Source of the DNA: Flavivirga amylovorans
GTDB lineage: Bacteria > Bacteroidota > Bacteroidia > Flavobacteriales > Flavobacteriaceae
Reading direction: 5' to 3'
Assembly: GCF_030540875.1 (NCBI RefSeq)
Contig: NZ_JAUOEM010000004.1
Coordinates: forward strand, 383,533-447,532
DNA: 64,000 bases
Of this stretch, positions 34,483-43,574 are shown one piece after another (position 1 is the first letter of the stretch; every line of letters starts with the position of its first letter). Made by a program: the position numbers and the translations under genes. Under the pieces are notes generated by a model. That model was given only the letters and a program-made list of their open reading frames with translations, made no database searches and was not told the origin of the DNA.

Positions 34483-37068
34483 ATGTTTTACAAATTTTTT
34501 AAATATTTTTTAGTTTTTTTATGTTTGTCTGCTTGTTGTGAAAATGAGTCAAATCAATATGAACAGACAATAGATGAACATTGGACTTTTAAAAATGTTG
34601 AAGATGTTGGTTGGCTCCCAGCAACTGTGCCAGGGTCAGTTCATACAGATTTAATAACTAATAAAATTATTGAAGATCCATTTTATCGTATAAATGAAGA
34701 TACTTTACAATGGATTGATAAAAAAGACTGGGAGTATAGAAAAACGTTTACCATTCCTAATAATATTTTAGAGAAAGAGCATGTTCAACTTCATTTTGAG
34801 GGGTTAGATACCTATGCTAATATTTATTTGAATGATTCTCTTGTTCTAAAAGCTAATAATATGTTTTTAGGCTGGCAAGTACCATGTAAGCCCCTATTAA
34901 AGGAAGGCGTAAATGTATTGCGAATTGTTTTAGAATCACCAATTAAAATAGGCTTAAAAAAAAGAGAAAGATTAGGGTATGAGTTGCCTAATGCGGTTAA
35001 TGACCAATCTGAAAAAGGAGGGGTAGGTAAAAAACAAGTCGCCGTATTTTCAAGAAAACCAGGATATCATTTTGGATGGGATTGGGGCCCAAGATTAGTG
35101 ACTAGTGGTATTTGGAAGCAGGTGAAGGTAGTTGCTTGGGATACAGCAAAACTTACTGATGTGTTTATTCATCAAAAAAAATTAGACGAAACTGAGGCTA
35201 GTTTAATTGCAGAAATAGAAATTAAAGCTAGTAAAGATTTTCAAGCCGATATCGAAATTTTAATTGATTCAACAAGAAAAATAAATAAAGAAATTACATT
35301 AAAAAAAGGTGTAAATAATTTAGAAATTCCTATAACAATTCATAGTCCGGAATTGTGGTGGACAAATGGCTTAGGGAATCAAAAATTATATACTATAGAA
35401 ACAATCATAAAAGAGAACAATACTATAATTGATGCTGTTTCAAAAAGGGTAGGCCTCCGTACTATAGAAGTTATACAGAAAAAAGATGATTTAGGAAAGA
35501 GTTTTTACTTTGAGCTAAATGGTGCGCCTGTTTTTATGAAAGGCGCTAACTATATTCCCCAAGATGTGTTTTTGAATAGAGTCTCTAAAGCAGATTACGA
35601 ACGTATTATTAAAGCAGCAGTAGAATCTAATTTTAATATGATTCGTGTTTGGGGAGGCGGTATCTATGAAAAAGATATTTTTTATGATCTGTGTGATGCG
35701 TATGGTATTCTTGTTTGGCAGGATTTTATGTTCGCATGTGCCATGTACCCTGGAAATGATGCATTTTTAGACAATGTAAAAAAAGAAGCAGAATATAATG
35801 TGAAACGTTTGCGTCAACACCCCAGTATTGCCTTGTGGTGTGGTGATAATGAAATTTTAACAGCTTGGAATAATTGGGGATGGATAGATCAGGTTACTAA
35901 AAGCCAGGGAGAAGCTGTAAAGAATAGAATATGGAAAGCTTACGAGGATGTATTTCATGATATTTTACCAAATACCGTAAATAAATATGATCGTGATAGG
36001 CTTTATTGGTCATCATCGCCAAGTTCTGGTTTTGGTACCTTAGATAGTTTAACCGCTGGAGATTACCATTATTGGAAAGTATGGTCCAATAAAGAACCGT
36101 TTTCTAAATACAACGAAGTGATTCCTAGATTTATGTCTGAATATGGTTTTCAGTCTTTTCCAGAATTTGAAAGTGTAAAAAAATATACTGAAGAACAAGA
36201 TTGGGACATCTATTCGGAAGTTATGAAATCACATCAACGTTCATCTGTGGGGAATGAGAATATTGAATACTATATGCTTCAAAACTATAAAAAACCTAAA
36301 GACTTTGAGTCTTTTTTATACGTTGGGCAATTATTGCAAGCTAAAGGCATTACAACAGCTATCGAAGCGCATAGACGAAATATGCCCTATTGTATGGGCT
36401 CCTTATATTGGCAGTTTAACGATTGTTGGCCAGCGGCCTCTTGGTCAAGTATGGATTATTATGGTAATTGGAAAGCGTTACAATATGGTGTGAAAGAGGC
36501 TTTTAAACCCACTTCAGTTATACCGTTTCAAAAAGGTGATAGTTTAGAAGTATATGTGGTTTCGGATGAACTAAAGAATCAAAATGCTATTTTAAGCCTT
36601 AAAGCTTTAGATTTCAATGGAAAGGTTCTATTCAATGAAGAGAAAGTAATTTCGATTAAGTCAAATTCAAGTACCTTATATTTTTCTGAAGATATTTCGA
36701 ATATTGTTAAAAAGAAGCTTTTAAAAAAATCGCTAATTCACATAGAGTTAATAGGGGAGGAAAATACAGAAATTGATGATAACGTTTTTTATTTTACAGA
36801 ACCAAAAGATTTAAAACTAACCAATCCAAATGTGAGTTTTAATTGTATTAAAAAAGATGATACTACTTTTGAAATCACTATGAATAGTAATATTTTAGCT
36901 AAAAATGTATGTTTAAGAAGTGACGTAAAAGGACGTTTTTCTCAAAACTTTAAGGATATTTTACCTGCTAAAAATTATAAAATTTTATTTTACTCAGAAG
37001 GGAAAGATATTACAATTGATGCATTTAAAAACAGTCTAAAAATAATGTCGTTGTTTGATTCTTTTTAA
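34483..37068 (+). CDS. GH2 beta-mannosidase lipoprotein
   Basis: 861 aa. Signal ends LFLCLSACCENES, so probably a lipoprotein. GH2 architecture: sugar-binding jelly roll (WLPATVPGSVHTDLITN, VQLHFEGLDTYANIYLN), Ig-like domain, then the TIM barrel. The acid/base is E457 in LWCGDNEIL and the nucleophile E553 in FMSEYGFQSFP, both in the beta-mannosidase pattern. LYWQFNDCWPAASWSS near residue 640 also fits. It removes terminal beta-mannose, which with GH130 defines the probable substrate class of PUL 1. It has its own unit after the terminator at 34351. Confidence 0.92.
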   Translation: MFYKFFKYFLVFLCLSACCENESNQYEQTIDEHWTFKNVEDVGWLPATVPGSVHTDLITNKIIEDPFYRINEDTLQWIDKKDWEYRKTFTIPNNILEKEHVQLHFEGLDTYANIYLNDSLVLKANNMFLGWQVPCKPLLKEGVNVLRIVLESPIKIGLKKRERLGYELPNAVNDQSEKGGVGKKQVAVFSRKPGYHFGWDWGPRLVTSGIWKQVKVVAWDTAKLTDVFIHQKKLDETEASLIAEIEIKASKDFQADIEILIDSTRKINKEITLKKGVNNLEIPITIHSPELWWTNGLGNQKLYTIETIIKENNTIIDAVSKRVGLRTIEVIQKKDDLGKSFYFELNGAPVFMKGANYIPQDVFLNRVSKADYERIIKAAVESNFNMIRVWGGGIYEKDIFYDLCDAYGILVWQDFMFACAMYPGNDAFLDNVKKEAEYNVKRLRQHPSIALWCGDNEILTAWNNWGWIDQVTKSQGEAVKNRIWKAYEDVFHDILPNTVNKYDRDRLYWSSSPSSGFGTLDSLTAGDYHYWKVWSNKEPFSKYNEVIPRFMSEYGFQSFPEFESVKKYTEEQDWDIYSEVMKSHQRSSVGNENIEYYMLQNYKKPKDFESFLYVGQLLQAKGITTAIEAHRRNMPYCMGSLYWQFNDCWPAASWSSMDYYGNWKALQYGVKEAFKPTSVIPFQKGDSLEVYVVSDELKNQNAILSLKALDFNGKVLFNEEKVISIKSNSSTLYFSEDISNIVKKKLLKKSLIHIELIGEENTEIDDNVFYFTEPKDLKLTNPNVSFNCIKKDDTTFEITMNSNILAKNVCLRSDVKGRFSQNFKDILPAKNYKILFYSEGKDITIDAFKNSLKIMSLFDSF

Positions 37069-37107
37069 AATACGAAAAAGGGTGGCTTCTAATCGTTCTA
37101 TAAGCTA

Positions 37108-37830
37108 TTATTCTTCAGAGCTGATTTTAATAAAGCTACAGGGCTTTATTTCAGACTGAATAATGGTTTTGGTTATAGAATTCATATATACGCCTTCAAA
37201 TATTGGATGTTTACTAGCACTTATAAAAAAATCAATGTTATTATTGAGTCTGGTATAATGAACAATTGATTTTTCATTTTTATAGAAAATATAGTCTTTA
37301 CAATTGCATGGCCTCTTAAATTCTCTTAGAACGATCTCTTGTGATTTATTTTCATTAACTACTTCAGAACATCGTACCTTTTTATAATGATCATTAACCC
37401 ATATCATGCAGTCTTTTTTGTAATATTTCGAAATAAATAATACTAGCATTATTATTAAAGGCAAGCAGGTGAATAAACCTATCTTTTTTATTTTAATCAG
37501 TTTGTTATTAATACTTATAATTTCTTTTCTTAGTTCATTCTTTACTATTTCGTATTCACGATTCTGCTGGAATTTCCTGTAATTTTCATGACCTAAATAT
37601 TGGCTTAGAATATTTAGATTATGTTCGCTTGGAGTTCTTCGTTCGCTTTTTTTATCTAAAATATAACCATCGTAATATCTGGTGAGAGTTCTTTCTGTAA
37701 TTTTTTCATTTAATACGTCTTCAAGATATCTTGAAATTCCATAAGCCTTCGTTTTTTTAGATGCTTTTATGGCTTTTACAAATACCAATTCAATTAATTC
37801 CTGAATTAATTCGTCTTTTCCTAGTTCCAC
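37108..37830 (-). CDS. membrane protein with possible N-terminal DNA-binding region
   Basis: 240 aa from a GTG start; no ATG is available upstream in frame. Residues 1-90 are helical and charged, and a stretch near 27-55 (YGISRYLEDVLNEKITERTL) resembles the helical N-terminal domain found in several Flavobacteriia regulators, which could be a helix-turn-helix. One transmembrane helix follows near 119-137 (IGLFTCLPLIIMLVLFIS), then a Cys-containing extracytoplasmic part (CMIWVN, CSEVV, CNCKDYIFY). A cytoplasmic DNA-binding region joined through one helix to a sensor domain would be a ToxR-like layout, but that is inference. It is divergent from the lipoprotein/kinase operon, and its upstream region carries a TGTCAA array. 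Confidence 0.65.
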   Translation of the reverse strand: MELGKDELIQELIELVFVKAIKASKKTKAYGISRYLEDVLNEKITERTLTRYYDGYILDKKSERRTPSEHNLNILSQYLGHENYRKFQQNREYEIVKNELRKEIISINNKLIKIKKIGLFTCLPLIIMLVLFISKYYKKDCMIWVNDHYKKVRCSEVVNENKSQEIVLREFKRPCNCKDYIFYKNEKSIVHYTRLNNNIDFFISASKHPIFEGVYMNSITKTIIQSEIKPCSFIKISSEE

Positions 37831-37893
37831 TATTATGTTCTTTTAAGGGTTTAATGTATTGTAGGTCAGCGCTTTAATTAAATTTGGTTTCTG

Positions 37894-37932
37894 TGTCAAA
37901 AAGATGTCAAAAAGTTGACAATAGCGTGTCAA
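37894..37932. promoter_or_regulatory. array of four TGTCAA half-sites at helical spacing
   Basis: TGTCAA at 37894 and 37905, its inverse TTGACA at 37915, and TGTCAA at 37927. The last two form a perfect palindrome (TTGACA-N6-TGTCAA, 37915-37932). Start-to-start distances are 11, 10 and 12 bp, so all sites face nearly the same side of the helix. They lie 64-102 bp upstream of the GTG at 37830. Confidence 0.6.
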
Positions 37933-38020
37933 CAATTGTTTTTAATAACCTTACGTAATTCGCTTCAGAATCAATTCAAGTTATATCGTGCTAACATAAT
38001 AAATGTGTAAAACTGAATTG

Positions 38021-38036
38021 TGCGGAAAACCGTAAA
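38021..38036 (+). promoter_or_regulatory. 16-bp CGG-N4-CCG motif, upstream copy
   Basis: TGCGGAAAACCGTAAA, a near-palindrome around CGG-AAAA-CCG. The exact reverse complement occurs at 40783-40798, just after the response regulator gene. It is a likely binding site of the LuxR-type regulator encoded between them; this is inferred. Confidence 0.6.
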
Positions 38037-38134
38037 GTGATAAACGAATGGTTGCATTGGGAAGTAATTATTTGTTATCACTATACAGTCTCCACTTCCC
38101 AAAACAACAAAAATTAATAACCCAAAAGGGGTTG
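38036..38134 (+). promoter_or_regulatory. structured leader upstream of the 53-residue lipoprotein gene
   Basis: Three inverted repeats: AGTGATAA (38036-38043) with TTATCACT (38075-38082); TTGGGAAGT (38057-38065) with ACTTCCCAA (38094-38102); AACCC (38119-38123) with GGGTT (38129-38133). The first two interleave, so in RNA they would be a pseudoknot or mutually exclusive hairpins. No ORF is present here. Confidence 0.45.
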
Positions 38135-38201
38135 CTGTTGCTGTAAACAAAGTTATCTGAGTAAAAGCTCGGACAGGGATCTCTTTGCAAAATTTTAAAT
38201 T

Positions 38202-38363
38202 ATGAAAACCATTTTATATGTATTTGTATTTCTTTTAATTGGAGCTAACTTTATGTCATGTACACCTCAAAACACGACTGATGCTGACGTACAAGGGATA
38301 AATATTCAAGATCTCCCAGATTGTTGTGGAGACGGAGGGAATATTCCTCCGCCAACGTCGTAA
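38202..38363 (+). CDS. 53-residue lipoprotein, possible signalling peptide precursor
   Basis: ATG at 38202 to TAA at 38361-38363. Residues 1-20 are a lipoprotein signal (KTILYVFVFLLIGANFMSC), with the predicted lipid-carrying cysteine at position 20. The mature part is about 34 residues, acidic, with a vicinal Cys pair and a Pro-rich end (DLPDCCGDGGNIPPPTS). It lies 41 bp before the histidine kinase gene, in the same direction, and is probably co-transcribed. No family recognised. The position suggests a ligand or regulator of the kinase; that is inference. Confidence 0.72.
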   Translation: MKTILYVFVFLLIGANFMSCTPQNTTDADVQGINIQDLPDCCGDGGNIPPPTS

Positions 38364-38404
38364 AAACTGATTGCTGAATAAAAATTAGTTATTACATTAG
38401 GGGA

Positions 38405-40078
38405 ATGAAATATACCATATTATCATTCCTCTTTTTTTTTGTTGTTAAAAATGGGTTTGGAGCTAAGGTTATTAACAGTAGGCAATTAGATAGCTTGAGC
38501 TATTATAGTCATATGGCCAATAATCCTACAACAGATTCAAGTCTTATAACAGCGTATGCTTTTTATGAACGAAAAAAAAATGAAAGTATTAAGTCAAATG
38601 ATACTGGATCTACAATTCGTCATTTAAGACAAATAGCTATTATACAGAATGAGTTAGGAGATTATTTTGGAGCCGAAATATCGGTTGTCGAGGCATTAAA
38701 ACTGCTGGAGACTATAAAGGATTCTAAGAATGTTATAAATAATAAGATTGGTTTGTATAACCAGTTAGGGCGAATTTATTTGGCGTTGTTAGATTATGAA
38801 GGAGCTATTAGATACTTTGATGAAGGGTTAAAGATCGCTAAGCTTAAAGATTACATTAATATTATTCAGAATAACAAGGCGTTGGTATATATCCGACAGC
38901 ATAGATATGAATTGGCCGAAAATGAATTTTTAAAAGTCTATAAAAATAGCCTTTTACAAGATGACAAAAAACAATTATCGAGAGCTTTAGATAATTTAGG
39001 GTTTGTTCAATCAAAACTCAATAAACCAGAAGGGGTAGAGAAATTAATGACAGCCTTGAAGCAGAGAATAGCCATAAAAGATAATGCAGGAATCTATTCA
39101 AGTTATAAGCATTTGGCAGAGATTTATAAAGATCGGGAAGATTTAGAAAAAGTTGCTTATTACGCTCATAAAGGCTATGAGGTAGCAAAAACGATTAATA
39201 GCCCATCCTTTATAAAAGATGCTTTGTCAGGCCTTATAAATTTAAATCAAGATAACAATATTGCTGAATACGTAAAAATTCTAGATAGCATAACTTTAGC
39301 AAAGCAAGTACAGGAGAATAAGTATGCTAAAATGAAATACGATTATACTGAAAAGGAGAAATTAGCAAAAGAGAATGAGCTTGCTAGAGAAAAGGAAAAA
39401 GGTTTAAAAATCTTTTATTTGTTTATAGCAGGTTTTATTTTATTGATATCAGTATTCTTATTCTTCATTTTAAAATCTAGACATAAAAAAGAGAATATCA
39501 AGAAAGTGTACAGGGCAGAAACGCGTATGTCTAAAAAAGTTCATGATGAGGTTGCAAATGATGTGTCAAGTCTTATGAGTTTTGTTGAAAATGATTTGGA
39601 AATTAAGGCAGATAAAAAGATAGAATTATTAGATGTTTTAGAAGATATTTATTTGCGTACACGAGATATATCGACTCAAACTGCTAGTATTGATTTAATT
39701 AATTTCACTGAAAGTCTTGAATATTTGCTAATTCAGCATAAGCGAAAAGGAACAAAAATTATTACGAATAAAATAAGTACTATTAATTGGTCAAAAGTTC
39801 CCGATCATAAAAAAATGGCCATTTTTAGAAGTGTTCAAGAGTTATTGGTTAATATGAAAAAGCATAGCCAAGCTAAAGTGGTGAGTTTAGTGTTTAAAGA
39901 AGATCGTCGTAAAAAGGAGATTATCTATTCAGATGATGGGATTGGTGTTTCAATAAAGGATGTTAAATTGAATGGATTGCTAAATGTGGAATCCCGTATT
40001 AATAATATTGGAGGAAGTTTTAATTTTATCACTTCAAAAGGAAACGGCTTTAAAGCTGTATTAAAGTTTAATAGTTAA
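38405..40078 (+). CDS. TPR-containing sensor histidine kinase
   Basis: 557 aa. Signal peptide (MKYTILSFLFFFVVKNGFGA), periplasmic TPR-like helices (about residues 70-300: YNQLGRIYLALLDYEGAIRY, ALVYIRQHRYELAENEFLKV, HLAEIYKDREDLEKVAYYAH), a coiled region, one transmembrane helix near 337-357, and a HisKA_3-like dimerisation helix with the phospho-acceptor H380 in KKVHDEVANDVSSLM. The ATPase domain has DDGIGVSIKDVKLNGLLNV and an N-box-like MKKHSQA. This is the LuxR-partner type of kinase widespread in Flavobacteriia. It is followed after 10 bp by its response regulator. Confidence 0.9.
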   Translation: MKYTILSFLFFFVVKNGFGAKVINSRQLDSLSYYSHMANNPTTDSSLITAYAFYERKKNESIKSNDTGSTIRHLRQIAIIQNELGDYFGAEISVVEALKLLETIKDSKNVINNKIGLYNQLGRIYLALLDYEGAIRYFDEGLKIAKLKDYINIIQNNKALVYIRQHRYELAENEFLKVYKNSLLQDDKKQLSRALDNLGFVQSKLNKPEGVEKLMTALKQRIAIKDNAGIYSSYKHLAEIYKDREDLEKVAYYAHKGYEVAKTINSPSFIKDALSGLINLNQDNNIAEYVKILDSITLAKQVQENKYAKMKYDYTEKEKLAKENELAREKEKGLKIFYLFIAGFILLISVFLFFILKSRHKKENIKKVYRAETRMSKKVHDEVANDVSSLMSFVENDLEIKADKKIELLDVLEDIYLRTRDISTQTASIDLINFTESLEYLLIQHKRKGTKIITNKISTINWSKVPDHKKMAIFRSVQELLVNMKKHSQAKVVSLVFKEDRRKKEIIYSDDGIGVSIKDVKLNGLLNVESRINNIGGSFNFITSKGNGFKAVLKFNS

Positions 40079-40088
40079 TGTTTTCATT

Positions 40089-40757
40089 ATGTTTCAAAAG
40101 GTTTTAATTGCAGAAGATCAGAATTCAATTCATAAAGGTTTAGAGAATATACTTAAGGATTTAAAAATTAAAGAAATAGCTACGGCTCAATATTGTGACG
40201 ATGCACTCTTGAAAATTAAAGCATCTTTAAATACGGCAAATCCAATTGAGCTTTTAATAACAGATTTATCTTTTAAGGAAGATCATCGAGATAGAACATT
40301 AACATCGGGGCAAGAATTAATACGAGCAGTCATGGATGTGCAACCTGAATTAAAGATTATTGTATTCTCAGTAGAGCATCGTATTGGCAAAATAAAAAAA
40401 TTGATAGAAGTTTCTAAAGTAGATGCTTATGTTGAGAAAGGACGAGAAGAATCAAGAGAGATGATAAAAGCAGTCCGAGCAGTGTTAAAAGACGAAATTT
40501 ATTACTCGCATAATCTGGCTCAATTAATTCGAAGTGCTGATGATATATCCCAAACAGATATATATGATGAATTACTTTTGCAATTATTAGCAAAGGGATT
40601 AAAAAGAAACCAAATTGCTTCATATTTTGAAGAAAAAGATTTACCTGCACGTAGTTTAAGAAGTATTGAAAAACGTATTAATAAGCTTAAAGTACTTTTC
40701 GATGCTAATACATCCGAACAACTCGTTGCTATTGCTATAGATAGAGGCATAATTTAG
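40089..40757 (+). CDS. LuxR/NarL-type response regulator
   Basis: 222 aa. Receiver domain with acidic pocket E9/D10 in VLIAEDQNSIHKGL, phospho-acceptor D59 in LLITDLSFKEDH and conserved Lys in VDAYVEKGREE. The C-terminal helix-turn-helix region (LLQLLAKGLKRNQIASYF, RSLRSIEKRINKLKVLF) is a divergent GerE/LuxR-like domain. It is phosphorylated by the adjacent kinase and presumably binds DNA; the 16-bp motif flanking the operon is the obvious candidate site. Confidence 0.88.
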   Translation: MFQKVLIAEDQNSIHKGLENILKDLKIKEIATAQYCDDALLKIKASLNTANPIELLITDLSFKEDHRDRTLTSGQELIRAVMDVQPELKIIVFSVEHRIGKIKKLIEVSKVDAYVEKGREESREMIKAVRAVLKDEIYYSHNLAQLIRSADDISQTDIYDELLLQLLAKGLKRNQIASYFEEKDLPARSLRSIEKRINKLKVLFDANTSEQLVAIAIDRGII

Positions 40758-40782
40758 ATTATTTTAAAACTATTTTTTTGTA

Positions 40783-40798
40783 TTTACGGTTTTCCGCA
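40783..40798 (-). promoter_or_regulatory. 16-bp CGG-N4-CCG motif, downstream copy
   Basis: TTTACGGTTTTCCGCA on the plus strand, the exact inverse of the copy at 38021-38036. It starts 26 bp after the response regulator stop. Confidence 0.6.
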
Positions 40799-40799
40799 T

Positions 40800-40827
40800 A
40801 AAACTATTGTTTAATAATAATAGTTTT
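40800..40827 (+). terminator. weak hairpin after the response regulator
   Basis: AAAACTATT pairs with AATAGTTTT around a 10-nt AT-rich loop. There is no GC-rich stem and only a short T-run, so terminator activity is uncertain. Confidence 0.35.
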
Positions 40828-40975
40828 GAAATGCTATTAATGATTATCAATAATTATCATAAGCAAAAATAACTATTGGCATGGGTTAGAGCGTGCGTTT
40901 CGTTATCATGCTTGGGGGTTGATTGATTTTAGAAGTGTTTTAGGTTTACATATAATTAATTTTTAAGAATAAAAT

Positions 40976-41281
40976 ATGGAAAGAAAGCCAAACACGGATA
41001 AAGTTGGTAAAAAGTGGAGTGAATTTCAAAAAGTGGCAGTTTGGAAAAAAGGAAAGGTCATTTCTGGGATAGATGCAGATATTTGTAGAAATGACGAGTT
41101 AGGAAAAAGAATAAAATGGGGGCATCACGGTAATAGAGAATCTTCTTATGGGTGGGAAATTGACCATATAAACCCCGTATCAAATGGTGGAGCCGACAAT
41201 ATTGATAATTTACAGCCTCTTCATTGGAAAAATAATACTGAAAAAGCAGATAAGCTAGACTGGATAGAAGTCCTTAAATGA
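40976..41281 (+). CDS. HNH endonuclease
   Basis: 101 aa, single domain. HNH motif: WEIDHINPVSNGGADNIDNL followed by QPLHWKNNTEKADK. The first His (IDH), the Asn pair and the last His (LHW) are all present. Basic N-terminus (MERKPNTDKVGKKWSEFQK). Such stand-alone HNH proteins are found in mobile elements and defence regions; the target is unknown. It opens the accessory patch that ends with the Abi gene. Confidence 0.88.
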   Translation: MERKPNTDKVGKKWSEFQKVAVWKKGKVISGIDADICRNDELGKRIKWGHHGNRESSYGWEIDHINPVSNGGADNIDNLQPLHWKNNTEKADKLDWIEVLK

Positions 41282-41435
41282 AATAAGATAGTTACTATCC
41301 ATATTTCAAGGAAAGCACCAGTATGTAAGGTGTCGTGAACATGATTTTTAAGACATTTCAACACTTTTTGTGTTAAGTATAGCAAATACTAGATGCAATA
41401 ACTTTAAATTCTATGTGTGTTTAGTGTTCCTATTT

Positions 41436-41942
41436 CTACCACAAAAAACCATAGATGGCAGAAAGAATAATAAGAATTATGTACGCTATCATGTTAAAAG
41501 ATTTTTCAGTTTTAAAAATTTGAGGATCAAGTACAATGGCTTTTCTATTATTGGTTTTATTAGAAAATACAAAATACAGACAAACAACATTCATAAATAA
41601 AAGTAATGCACCAAACCAAGAGGGAAGAATAATATCATTAGTGAATATTCTAAGAACAAATGGAATGGAGGTTAGTAACATCGTACCGAGAATAACCAAT
41701 GCAGATTTCGAATCTGTTTTTTTGTCTACAGAATAAGGTTTATCAAGATAAGATAAAGAAACTATTAGCGTGGATAATACAACAAACGAAATAGTCATAC
41801 GGTAGAAAAAAGGTAAATCAGTCATCAAAAATAACCCTATGGACAAAGGGATACATAATAGTGCAACCCATAGTGCTGCTTTTGCACTGGTTCGTTTCCA
41901 AAACATGCCAAATATAATAGCAACAAACGCACCAGGACTTAT
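41436..41942 (-). pseudogene. 3' fragment of a sodium:solute symporter gene
   Basis: The C-terminal quarter of an SSS transporter reads from SPGAFVAIIFGMFWKRTSAKAAL to an intact end (AIYGFLW then stop). The N-terminal part is missing: upstream of the Ser-Pro-Gly (near 41935-41945) the sequence turns into the opposite-strand transposase remnant. About 168 residues are left, with four to five membrane segments. It does not belong to the symporter at 31699, which is complete and only distantly similar. Non-functional. Confidence 0.8.
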
Positions 41943-42351
41943 AGAACGAAACGGCAAAGTCGTTCTAAAACATGTTCCTAGTGCTGATCTAAATAATGTA
42001 GGCAAGCTTATTAGTAAGCACGTTCCTAAAGGTTCTACTATATATTCTGATGAAGCACCAGTATATAATCACTTGAAAAAGTTTTATACGCATGACAATG
42101 TTAAGCATTCACTTAATATTTATGTTGAGGGTTCTGTACATACCAATACTATTGAAAACTTTTGGAGTGTTTTAAAGCGTGGTTTATATGGTATATATCA
42201 CCAAGTAAGCGATAAACATTTAGAACGCTATTTAGATGAATTTAGCGCACGTTTTAATACTATAGATTTGTCTAGTCAACAGCGTTTTGAAAAGTTTTTG
42301 GTGGATAGTGAGAGTGTTTTGAGTTATAAAAGGTTAACCTTAAAACACTAA
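41941..42351 (+). pseudogene. 3' fragment of an IS1595-family transposase
   Basis: In-frame from IERNGKVVLKHV at 41941 to a stop at 42351. This is the C-terminal part of an IS1595/ISXO2-like DDE transposase: GSTIYSDEAPVYNHL (an acidic catalytic residue), HTNTIENFWSVLKRGLYGIYH (the N/E region), YLDEFSARFN. The N-terminal half including the zinc-binding and first catalytic residues is absent. The join to the truncated symporter is abrupt, as expected from an IS-adjacent deletion. No clear terminal repeat was seen downstream. Confidence 0.85.
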
Positions 42352-42460: not shown

Positions 42461-42467
42461 ATTTTTG

Positions 42468-42475
42468 TATATTTG
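42468..42475 (+). promoter_or_regulatory. -7 element of the Abi gene promoter
   Basis: TATATTTG fits TAnnTTTG. The expected -33 TTG is replaced by the A-tract repeat. Transcription would start near 42482, downstream of the TTG at 42465, so that codon cannot be the start. Confidence 0.5.
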
Positions 42476-42548
42476 TACACAACAAACCACTCCCGCCTAT
42501 CTACGATGCGCATTAGGAGTGGTAATTTATTTTATAGCCTTACTTAAA

Positions 42549-43574
42549 TTGAAGATATACGTTAAACCACCTCTTTCTTATCAAGAGCAATTAGATAAAC
42601 TCATTGAACGCGGTTTAACTGTAGAGCATCCAGATAAAGCACTTCACTTATTAGAAAATTTAAGTTACTATAGATTAAGCGGATATCTTTATCCTATGCT
42701 CTCTGAACCAAAGGAAGCGCATAAATTCAAGGAAAACAGTACTCTTGAAAATGCTTTTAAAATATATTGTTTTGATAGAGAATTAAAGCAATTACTATCT
42801 AGTGAAATAGAAAAAATAGAAGTGTCTTTCAGAGCGAAAATAACATATGTTCTTTCGCATAAGTATGATGCTTTTTGGTATACTTATGAAAGGTTATTTA
42901 AATCAAATGATACGCATAGAAGAAGTTTAGATAGTACTTATGCTATGGTTAACGAAAGTACTGAGGACTTTGCAATAAAATTTAAACAAAACTATGTGAA
43001 TACTTATTTACCTAGTTGGATGGCGTTAGAAATAGTTACTTTCACGCATCTTTCTAAACTATACAGTAATCTTATAGACTCATCTGCTAAAACCGAGATT
43101 GCTGCCTTTTATGGAGTTAATACTCCTATTTTAGAAAATTGGTTAATGATAATAACTTATACTAGAAATATTTGTGCTCATCACTCACGTTTTTGGAATA
43201 GAAGATTGTCTTATAAATTATCTAAATTTAAAAAGCAGCCAATTTATGATTGGGTTGACATGACAGATATTCCAAAAAACTCGTCTTATGCTTATATTTG
43301 TATAGTTAAATATTTATCAGATAGAGTAAACCCTAAAAATACCTTTAAAGAAAAAATACTTGGTCTTTTAGATAAATATCCAAATATAGATAATTATAAA
43401 GGAATGTCATTTCCTCAAGATTGGAGAGAACAACCTTTATGGAAAAATAATTTAAACAATACTGCTTTGGTTAAAGAAAAAGAACAAAAACCTAAAGAAG
43501 AACCTTTAAAAATAAACACTTCTTTAGACGACGTATTAAAAGCTTCCATTCCTAAGCCAAAAGAAAAGGAATAG
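42549..43574 (+). CDS. Abi_2 (AbiD/AbiF) abortive infection protein
   Basis: 341 aa from a TTG at 42549, chosen because it lies downstream of the likely promoter and begins just before the conserved Abi_2 start (KIYVKPPLSYQEQLDKLIER). Other Abi_2 features: LLENLSYYRLSGYLYPM, LKQLLSSEIEKIEVSFRAKI, PSWMALEIVTFTHLSKLY and RNICAHHSRFWNRRL. The last contains an R-x4-H motif of HEPN ribonucleases. Family members block phage propagation, probably by RNA cleavage upon infection. The C-terminal 60 residues are Lys/Glu/Pro-rich and look disordered. Acquired recently by its context (HNH gene, IS remnant). Confidence 0.88.
   Translation: MKIYVKPPLSYQEQLDKLIERGLTVEHPDKALHLLENLSYYRLSGYLYPMLSEPKEAHKFKENSTLENAFKIYCFDRELKQLLSSEIEKIEVSFRAKITYVLSHKYDAFWYTYERLFKSNDTHRRSLDSTYAMVNESTEDFAIKFKQNYVNTYLPSWMALEIVTFTHLSKLYSNLIDSSAKTEIAAFYGVNTPILENWLMIITYTRNICAHHSRFWNRRLSYKLSKFKKQPIYDWVDMTDIPKNSSYAYICIVKYLSDRVNPKNTFKEKILGLLDKYPNIDNYKGMSFPQDWREQPLWKNNLNNTALVKEKEQKPKEEPLKINTSLDDVLKASIPKPKEKE

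Follow-up and report, generated by a model that had tools for sequence, protein, structure and literature searches.

In Escherichia coli, the outer-membrane lipoprotein QseG, encoded in the same operon as the kinase QseE and the regulator QseF, activates the kinase via a periplasmic loop, and QseF drives a small RNA; a section of the same paper is headed 'Absence of transcriptional autoregulation of the qseEGF operon' (PMC6075780). Here we analyse a signalling module from Flavivirga amylovorans, located in a window of 64,000 nt (assembly GCF_030540875.1, NZ_JAUOEM010000004.1:383,533-447,532, forward strand; host genome 4.86 Mb), in which genes for a small lipoprotein, a TPR histidine kinase and a NarL/LuxR-type response regulator lie on the plus strand. 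The module shares with QseEGF a lipoprotein gene in a kinase–regulator operon (here at 38202-38363), and QseG-QseE-QseF is its closest tested analogue. Unlike QseEGF, it has a TPR sensor kinase, a structured leader RNA and an operator inside the kinase gene. QseF acts on sigma-54 promoters, whereas the regulator of the module is of the NarL type and its promoters carry the sigma-A -7 box TAnnTTTG. Because these promoters are of the sigma-A type, the module is not a member of the QseEGF group. The RRNPP proteins of Firmicutes are cytoplasmic and themselves bind DNA or phosphatase targets. The module resembles them in having a TPR domain that would read a small exported protein, and differs from them in that its TPRs are predicted to lie outside the cytoplasm, on a kinase. 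NarL/LuxR-type two-component systems (RcsB, LiaR/VraR, spr1814) have the same regulator fold and a palindromic operator; unlike them, the module adds a TPR sensor, a lipoprotein partner, a uniform 22-nt promoter grammar and a local, variable cargo regulon. The module is undescribed in the literature we searched, a body outside which most subscription papers and all preprints fall. Its core features, by position in the window, are:

37991..37998, minus strand: -7 box for the divergent gene X, TATGTTAG, one mismatch to TAnnTTTG, 22 nt from operator U
38021..38034, minus strand: operator U, TACGGTTTTCCGCA read toward X
38202..38363, plus strand: small lipoprotein, 53 aa, lipobox MSC, C-terminal CCGDGGNIPPPTS
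38405..40078, plus strand: TPR histidine kinase, 557 aa, assigned from Pfam, conservation in 103 kinases and hydropathy
39985..39998, plus strand: operator H, inside the kinase gene, TGTGGAATCCCGTA, one mismatch to TRCGGNNNNCCGYA
40021..40028, plus strand: -7 box of the predicted internal regulator promoter, TAATTTTA, one mismatch, 22 nt past operator H
40089..40757, plus strand: response regulator, 222 aa, receiver residues D10, D59 and K117, NarL/LuxR-type four-helix helix-turn-helix
40785..40798, plus strand: operator D, TACGGTTTTCCGCA
40821..40828, plus strand: -7 box of D, TAGTTTTG, exactly 22 nt past operator D

We collected 106 modules, the window included, 104 of which have a kinase open reading frame (ORF); L035, L043, L045, L049, L062, L063 and L064 were excluded by hand, L035 and L043 being duplicates of L094 and L124. 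Across the 104 loci, TRCGG-N4-CCGYA palindromes are concentrated in three positions: ahead of the lipoprotein gene (U), inside the kinase before the regulator start (H) and directly after the regulator (D). Of the noncoding D sites, 47 of 66 have a TAnnTTT[GC] box that begins exactly 22 nt past the palindrome, as do 39 of 46 H sites. A minus-strand box with at most one mismatch is found at 22 nt in 17 of the 21 U sites with an exact palindrome, and 8 have one at 13 nt. Composite promoters (at most two mismatches in the operator and one in the box) occur at H in 93 and at D in 76 of the 104 modules, with one or both in 99; at U, 34 read on the minus strand, toward X, versus 2 on the plus strand. 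The set holds near-duplicates, and separate counts for 89 regulator clusters, defined by ungapped identity, gave 79 for H, 65 for D, 85 for either and 27 for U. Under a stricter rule, with the window left out, orientations were 88 plus and 3 minus at H, 90 and 3 at D, and 1 and 26 at U; the strict composite is absent from 165 kb of kinase body and 74 kb of regulator gene, and 432 kb further upstream holds 3 on the plus and 7 on the minus strand. In the host genome, TRYGG-N4-CCGYA-N22-TAnnTTTG with at most one mismatch is present at three places, all in the module, against none for the reversed control; summed over 60 genomes, the figures are 158 and 48. Comparison of the modules shows the predicted promoter wiring, namely operator, spacing and orientation, and TRCGG-N4-CCGYA appears to be the operator of a NarL/LuxR-type response regulator, standing in place of the -33 box. 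TRCGG-N4-CCGYA-N22-TAnnTTTG would provide an exact, genome-scannable promoter grammar for a regulator family that is widespread in Flavobacteriales. Regulator orthologues at 77-94% identity are present in seven same-genus genomes of the 60 scanned, with more distant ones in the family and order and some match in 34 of the 60; a scan of named genomes gave at least 484 regulator relatives among the 589 candidate stretches listed, of which the best 80 were kept.

We consider it highly probable that the module is a self-contained three-component switch made up of the lipoprotein, the TPR kinase and a NarL-type regulator that activates X, itself and the cargo. The lipoprotein, anchored through a lipid at its N terminus, would offer the short tail at its C terminus to the TPR domain that the kinase exposes in the periplasm, and the kinase would phosphorylate the regulator; the phosphorylated regulator would bind TRCGG-N4-CCGYA at -41.5 and activate sigma-A promoters. 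From site U, on the minus strand, it would activate the divergent gene X; from site H, its own gene through a promoter in the kinase gene, creating positive feedback; and from site D, the downstream transcripts. In the window these would include an HNH cargo gene; in relatives they would frequently be a short RNA ending in a terminator and, after it, small cargo genes that vary between loci, some of which have a copy of the promoter themselves. The signal, and the functions of the cargo and of X, are putative. More tentatively, and with confidence somewhat short of even, we propose that the module represents a new form of Bacteroidota envelope signalling, in which the activating ligand of a TPR kinase, tethered or released, would be a very small exported protein that has a conserved C-terminal G[DN]xGxIPPP-like tail and is produced from its own structured leader, and the regulator would act on itself within the kinase gene, on a short RNA and on exchangeable cargo of the same grammar.

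The kinase begins with a signal-like stretch (judged by eye), followed by the TPR domain and a transmembrane helix at about residues 332-361; since this is the only such helix, and the N-terminal stretch is signal-like, the TPRs are predicted to be periplasmic. Its phosphoacceptor H380 and ATPase motifs (N483, D510, G512 and G514) are conserved in 95-99% of 103 kinases. The catalytic part has an H-D-E phosphoacceptor and weak similarity to VraS (E 0.0028), and its HATPase_c match is under the Pfam cut-off. In the regulator, Response_reg (PF00072) is over the cut-off, and D10, D59 and K117 are invariant in 27 aligned sequences. Pfam GerE was not matched by the regulator and DUF5932 only below threshold; NCBIfam gave both proteins sub-cut-off names only. 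The AlphaFold model of the regulator (mean predicted local distance difference test score, pLDDT, 90.8) has four C-terminal helices, and its top Foldseek matches are spr1814, RcsB (with DNA), LiaR and VraR. On the strength of the conserved H380, D59 and K117, phosphotransfer from the kinase to the NarL-type regulator would be expected.

The linker of the lipoprotein is variable, while its C terminus keeps a motif of the CCGDDGxIPPPP or ATEGDDGxI type. The module would tie a small exported protein to TPR kinases. Flavobacterium johnsoniae CI04 (L154) is among its carriers, and the lipoprotein is clear in Dokdonia pacifica (L111) and Winogradskyella luteola (L095). A short conserved tail on a variable linker, doubled in one relative type (L182, and L183 with one change), would also suit a released peptide signal, a pheromone for the TPR kinase in place of a fixed envelope ligand; since a membrane-anchored ligand of the QseG kind accounts for the same facts, we regard release as possible and rather doubtful. 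No relative of the lipoprotein was confirmed on viral contigs.

In Flavobacterium psychrophilum, the sigma-A -7 box TAnnTTTG spans -12 to -5 (PMC9723704), and the same placement puts the predicted transcription start of the D promoter at about 40833. With a box at -12 to -5 and a spacing of 22 nt, the operator would be centred at -41.5. Class II activators usually sit at -41.5. NarL-type regulators are able to activate and to repress, and an operator in the position of the -33 box could, when occupied, cover the -35 region and block the polymerase, with phosphorylation relieving or strengthening the block. The usual class II position and the strict 22-nt spacing, which suggests productive polymerase contact, argue against repression, and we judge it improbable.

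Operator H overlaps the codons of the conserved N-x-E-N-R-I box of the kinase, and one may ask whether it is a mere consequence of protein-coding conservation, given that the site encodes residues conserved in the kinases and that its spacing keeps the reading frame. The synonymous codons, however, are almost fixed for the palindrome. In 96 of the 104 kinases (those with other box residues were excluded, among them L057 and L058 with ACA), and against backgrounds taken from the same kinases, Thr is ACG in 27 of 27 cases (background 0.11), Ala is GCG in 25 of 25 (0.10), Val is GTG in 31 of 32 (0.18), Arg is CGT or CGC in 92 of 96 (0.24) and Asn is AAC in 56 of 64 (0.28). At most one operator mismatch is seen at H in 89 of the 96. 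A peptide scan for GLxN[TAVMI]ENRI over all loci, unsorted by gene, gave 57 contexts, of which 52 have at most one operator mismatch and 5 have 3-4. The near-fixed synonymous codons imply that conservation at H is not a protein effect alone, and an operator held in kinase coding sequence in this way is unusual. A paralogous module bears on the same point: its ACA Thr codon matches its own altered noncoding D operator. We therefore consider protein-coding conservation as the sole cause to be very unlikely.

This second complete module of the host genome (L058; L187, contig C6) comprises a leader RNA (C6:375695-375849), a lipoprotein, a kinase and a regulator that is 40% identical. Both it and a relative in another genome (L057, G007) carry the shifted operator TACAGAAAAGCGTA at H; the shifted D operators are TACAGATATCTGTA in L058 and TACACATATCTGTA in L057, and the H and D operators of both lie 22 nt before a TAnnTTTG box. 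The operator types of the second module are TACAG..CTGTA at D and TACAG..GCGTA at H. That the coding and noncoding sites have shifted in step supports a single regulator reading both, and the two modules of the host genome would form a natural operator-specificity pair.

The original prediction had rested on an inverted 16-mer, and its coordinates were confirmed: TGCGGAAAACCGTAAA lies at 38021-38036 on the plus strand with an exact inverse at 40783-40798, and the pair encloses the 53-aa lipoprotein ORF, the 557-aa TPR histidine kinase and the 222-aa response regulator. The accompanying claim was that an exact 16-bp match is very unlikely by chance within 3 kb. An inverted exact 16-mer pair arose in 6 of 1000 Markov simulations of a 3-kb stretch, and 7 of 61 overlapping 3-kb segments of the real sequence hold one, segments around this pair included; the pair alone is thus moderately improbable and only suggestive. 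There is no further match to TGCGGAAAACCGTAAA in the window at up to three mismatches, where shuffles average 0.52. The 4.86-Mb genome has three copies of the 14-bp core TRCGG-N4-CCGYA, two in the module, against 7 for the reversed control, and the core as such is not over-represented genome-wide. Certainty about the motif comes from its context: the operator with its -7 box is confined to the module in the host genome, and the layout is conserved in relatives. As for the other early claims, the near-palindromic operator for a LuxR/NarL-type regulator is supported, as a predicted operator, by the comparison, and the motif is present near related operons. Autoregulation gained support and would run through the third site, in the kinase gene; for control of the lipoprotein from the upstream site, no evidence was found. 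The two copies listed are real, and the third operator at 39985-39998 and the conserved divergent gene X had been overlooked. The two copies do not bound a unit; both would be outward promoter elements, toward X and toward the downstream cargo. A mobile unit bounded by inverted repeats, which the prediction had offered as an alternative, could draw on the exact inverted 16-mers, on downstream genes that differ among relatives and on an ORF further downstream that we take to be transposase-like (41839-42351). It was rejected as very unlikely: Pfam finds no transposase family in the lipoprotein, kinase or regulator between the repeats, relatives throughout Flavobacteriales have the same layout, and the repeats are parts of predicted promoters, with the -7 box at a fixed distance and a third, internal copy.

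The palindrome is otherwise scarce around the modules. In the 0-250 bp past the regulator, 65 sites were found in 104 loci, or 2.5 per kb, and the density is 0-0.16 per kb in bins more than 750 bp downstream or more than 3.5 kb upstream of the regulator end (the last, two-locus bin aside). It is absent from eight loci of more distant paralogous regulators (L065-L072, one without a matched regulator ORF), and the exact palindrome was not found in seven loci of the clade (L039, L040, L041, L057, L058, L062 and L064). A genome-wide regulon read from the 14-bp palindrome alone was rejected, because most of the 60 genomes have about as many copies as the reversed control, or fewer; the exceptions among the matches listed include G040 (17 versus 0) and G053 (22 versus 8). 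Several of the sites opened elsewhere fall inside unrelated genes, one of them an ORF that we presume to be HSP90-like. Separately, TACGG-N4-CCGTA palindromes stand 55-91 bp before ORFs in L080 (at 3001), L089 (at 10124) and L085 (at 3001); these ORFs look like Cas9 and Cas1. In L080, the -7 box that goes with the palindrome lies on the opposite strand and reads away from the Cas9-like gene.

Several observations weigh against the proposed three-component switch. The reversed composite is as frequent as the composite, or more so, in some relatives (for example G009, G010 and G017), and 5 of the 104 modules have neither an H nor a D composite. In the window itself, H is mismatched once in the operator and once in the box, and U once in the box. 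The spacing at H is in frame and fixed by the protein, so that only the codon choice there counts as independent evidence. Seven loci of the Chryseobacterium/Epilithonimonas type (L107, L109, L120, L127, L137, L163 and L168) have other neighbours, and neither X nor the lipoprotein was found in the lists for them. The lipoprotein had been predicted to be the partner of the kinase, and it is frequent, although the strict lipoprotein rule is satisfied in 57 of the 104 modules (58 matches, with L137 judged spurious); some modules that fail the rule have a small ORF without a clear lipobox. A plus-strand -7 box at 22 nt was found at 0 of 21 U sites, and a consistent -7 box before the leader was not found, only 5 of 44 leaders having one at 17-20 nt. 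Given the missing plus-strand boxes, operator U was not assigned control of the lipoprotein.

Between operator U and the lipoprotein gene lies the leader:

38056..38201, plus strand: structured leader RNA, with hairpin P1, then P3 enclosing P4; P2 mainly in relatives

Of 57 leaders, 43 passed a filter on P1 pairing, and removal of L115, L126, L136, L138, L144 and L169 left 37; as P1 was part of the selection, its pairing is biased. In this alignment, itself made from sequence only, 82.2% of cells pair, compared with 38-48% after the partners have been shifted along the alignment; both sides have changed in 19 of 28 pairs, and 0 of 500 shuffles reach the covariation score. For P3 and P4 alone, pairing is 81.0% versus 36-43% and no shuffle reaches the covariation score, while the number of doubly changed pairs is reached by 15 of 500 shuffles. 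RNAalifold on the same alignment returned only P1 and P4; P3 came from a pairing scan of the alignment and P2 was drawn by eye. The leader of the window folds with a z-score of -2.69, and 3 of 200 shuffles are equally stable.

A covariance model of the leader gave 25 matches in 20 of the 60 related genomes. Five matches outside the collected modules, together with the second module of the host, make six, of which five lie directly before a small lipoprotein and one, a weak match, does not. The model also matches loci outside its training set, including Chryseobacterium, Elizabethkingia and Aquimarina; in the matching Chryseobacterium and Elizabethkingia loci, the small protein is without a clear lipobox, and several have tails of the GNTGQ/GDTGQ-PPP type. 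Over 72 loci there were 35 matches, with none for some loci; all 25 of those opened end at the ATG of a small ORF, an ending that the model itself favours because it was built with the ATG as its last part. A search of window positions 37000-42000 against 4227 Rfam families gave no match at E<=1, and the leader is a candidate class of cis-regulatory RNA without an Rfam match. Its conserved fold suggests that the lipoprotein level is probably tuned post-transcriptionally. In L182 and L183, the leader RNA precedes a 79-aa lipoprotein whose C-terminal motif ATGDQGDI is repeated, perfectly in L182 and with one change in L183; downstream is what looks like another kinase-like/regulator-like pair. 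In L185 (G022, contig C26), a cargo array follows the leader RNA and the lipoprotein, and the listed ORFs include neither a kinase nor a regulator.

Upstream of the module, the divergent gene is:

37108..37830, minus strand: gene X, conserved single-transmembrane protein, GTG start

In 73 of the 106 modules, a member of the X family lies upstream, on the minus strand. Its alignment has a helical N-terminal domain and a C-terminal domain with W-M-x-W and H-P motifs, and the AlphaFold model has a mean pLDDT of 85.6; X gave no Pfam match at E<=1, and comparison of its fold with the PDB returned nothing at E<=0.001. TTGACA/TGTCAA elements are repeated before X at 37892-37935 and are conserved in six orthologues, the window included; they are possibly an operator for X or for another regulator.

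Downstream of operator D, the first gene of the cargo is:

40976..41281, plus strand: first cargo gene, 101-aa HNH endonuclease-like protein (Pfam PF01844, E 1.1e-8)

The HNH cluster is downstream in 8 modules, the window included. Many loci have plus-strand runs of variable genes after the regulator, from families such as HNH, DUF1508, HSDR_N, TerB-like (below cut-off), DUF6804, the nucleases SNase and Exo_endo_phos, DUF2188, YidD and DUF4236, along with unknowns; other loci, for example six of the Chryseobacterium/Epilithonimonas type, have minus-strand genes there. More than 350 bp downstream, the plus strand has another 35 composites, 21 of them within 2.5 kb and 14 further away, and the minus strand has 2, both within 2.5 kb. 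At 17 of the 35, the -7 box is followed at 15-32 nt by a start codon (ORF of at least 45 aa); four of the 35, in L124, are part of a second module. From the distal plus-strand composites near ORF starts, cargo genes seem to carry their own promoter.

Two or more D promoters are present in 23 modules, mostly spaced 120-129 nt apart (14 of 23) and many with a terminator-like hairpin between them. A terminator-like hairpin with a T run follows within 130 nt of the first D promoter, D1, in 25 of 65 promoters versus 55 of 650 shuffles. In relatives, D1 appears, from these patterns, to drive a short RNA that often starts near TGCTATTAAT and ends in a terminator hairpin. The D1 region of the window (40829-40976) has, by eye, no clear terminator, and the small RNA is therefore kept as a lead only. 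Base pairing between the D1 RNA and the leader was considered and dropped after inspection by eye.

The region 41436-42351 of the window contains only a fragment of a minus-strand transporter gene, whose counterparts in L033 and L034 have 578 aa, and beside it ORF 41839-42351, the presumably transposase-like one. PADLOC was run on the kinase, X, the HNH protein, ORF 42465-43574 and three cargo proteins; one cargo protein gave a weak match to LmuB, and only 42465-43574 was named, as AbiD. This gene, directly past the module, encodes an AbiD-like abortive-infection protein (PADLOC E 1.5e-71).

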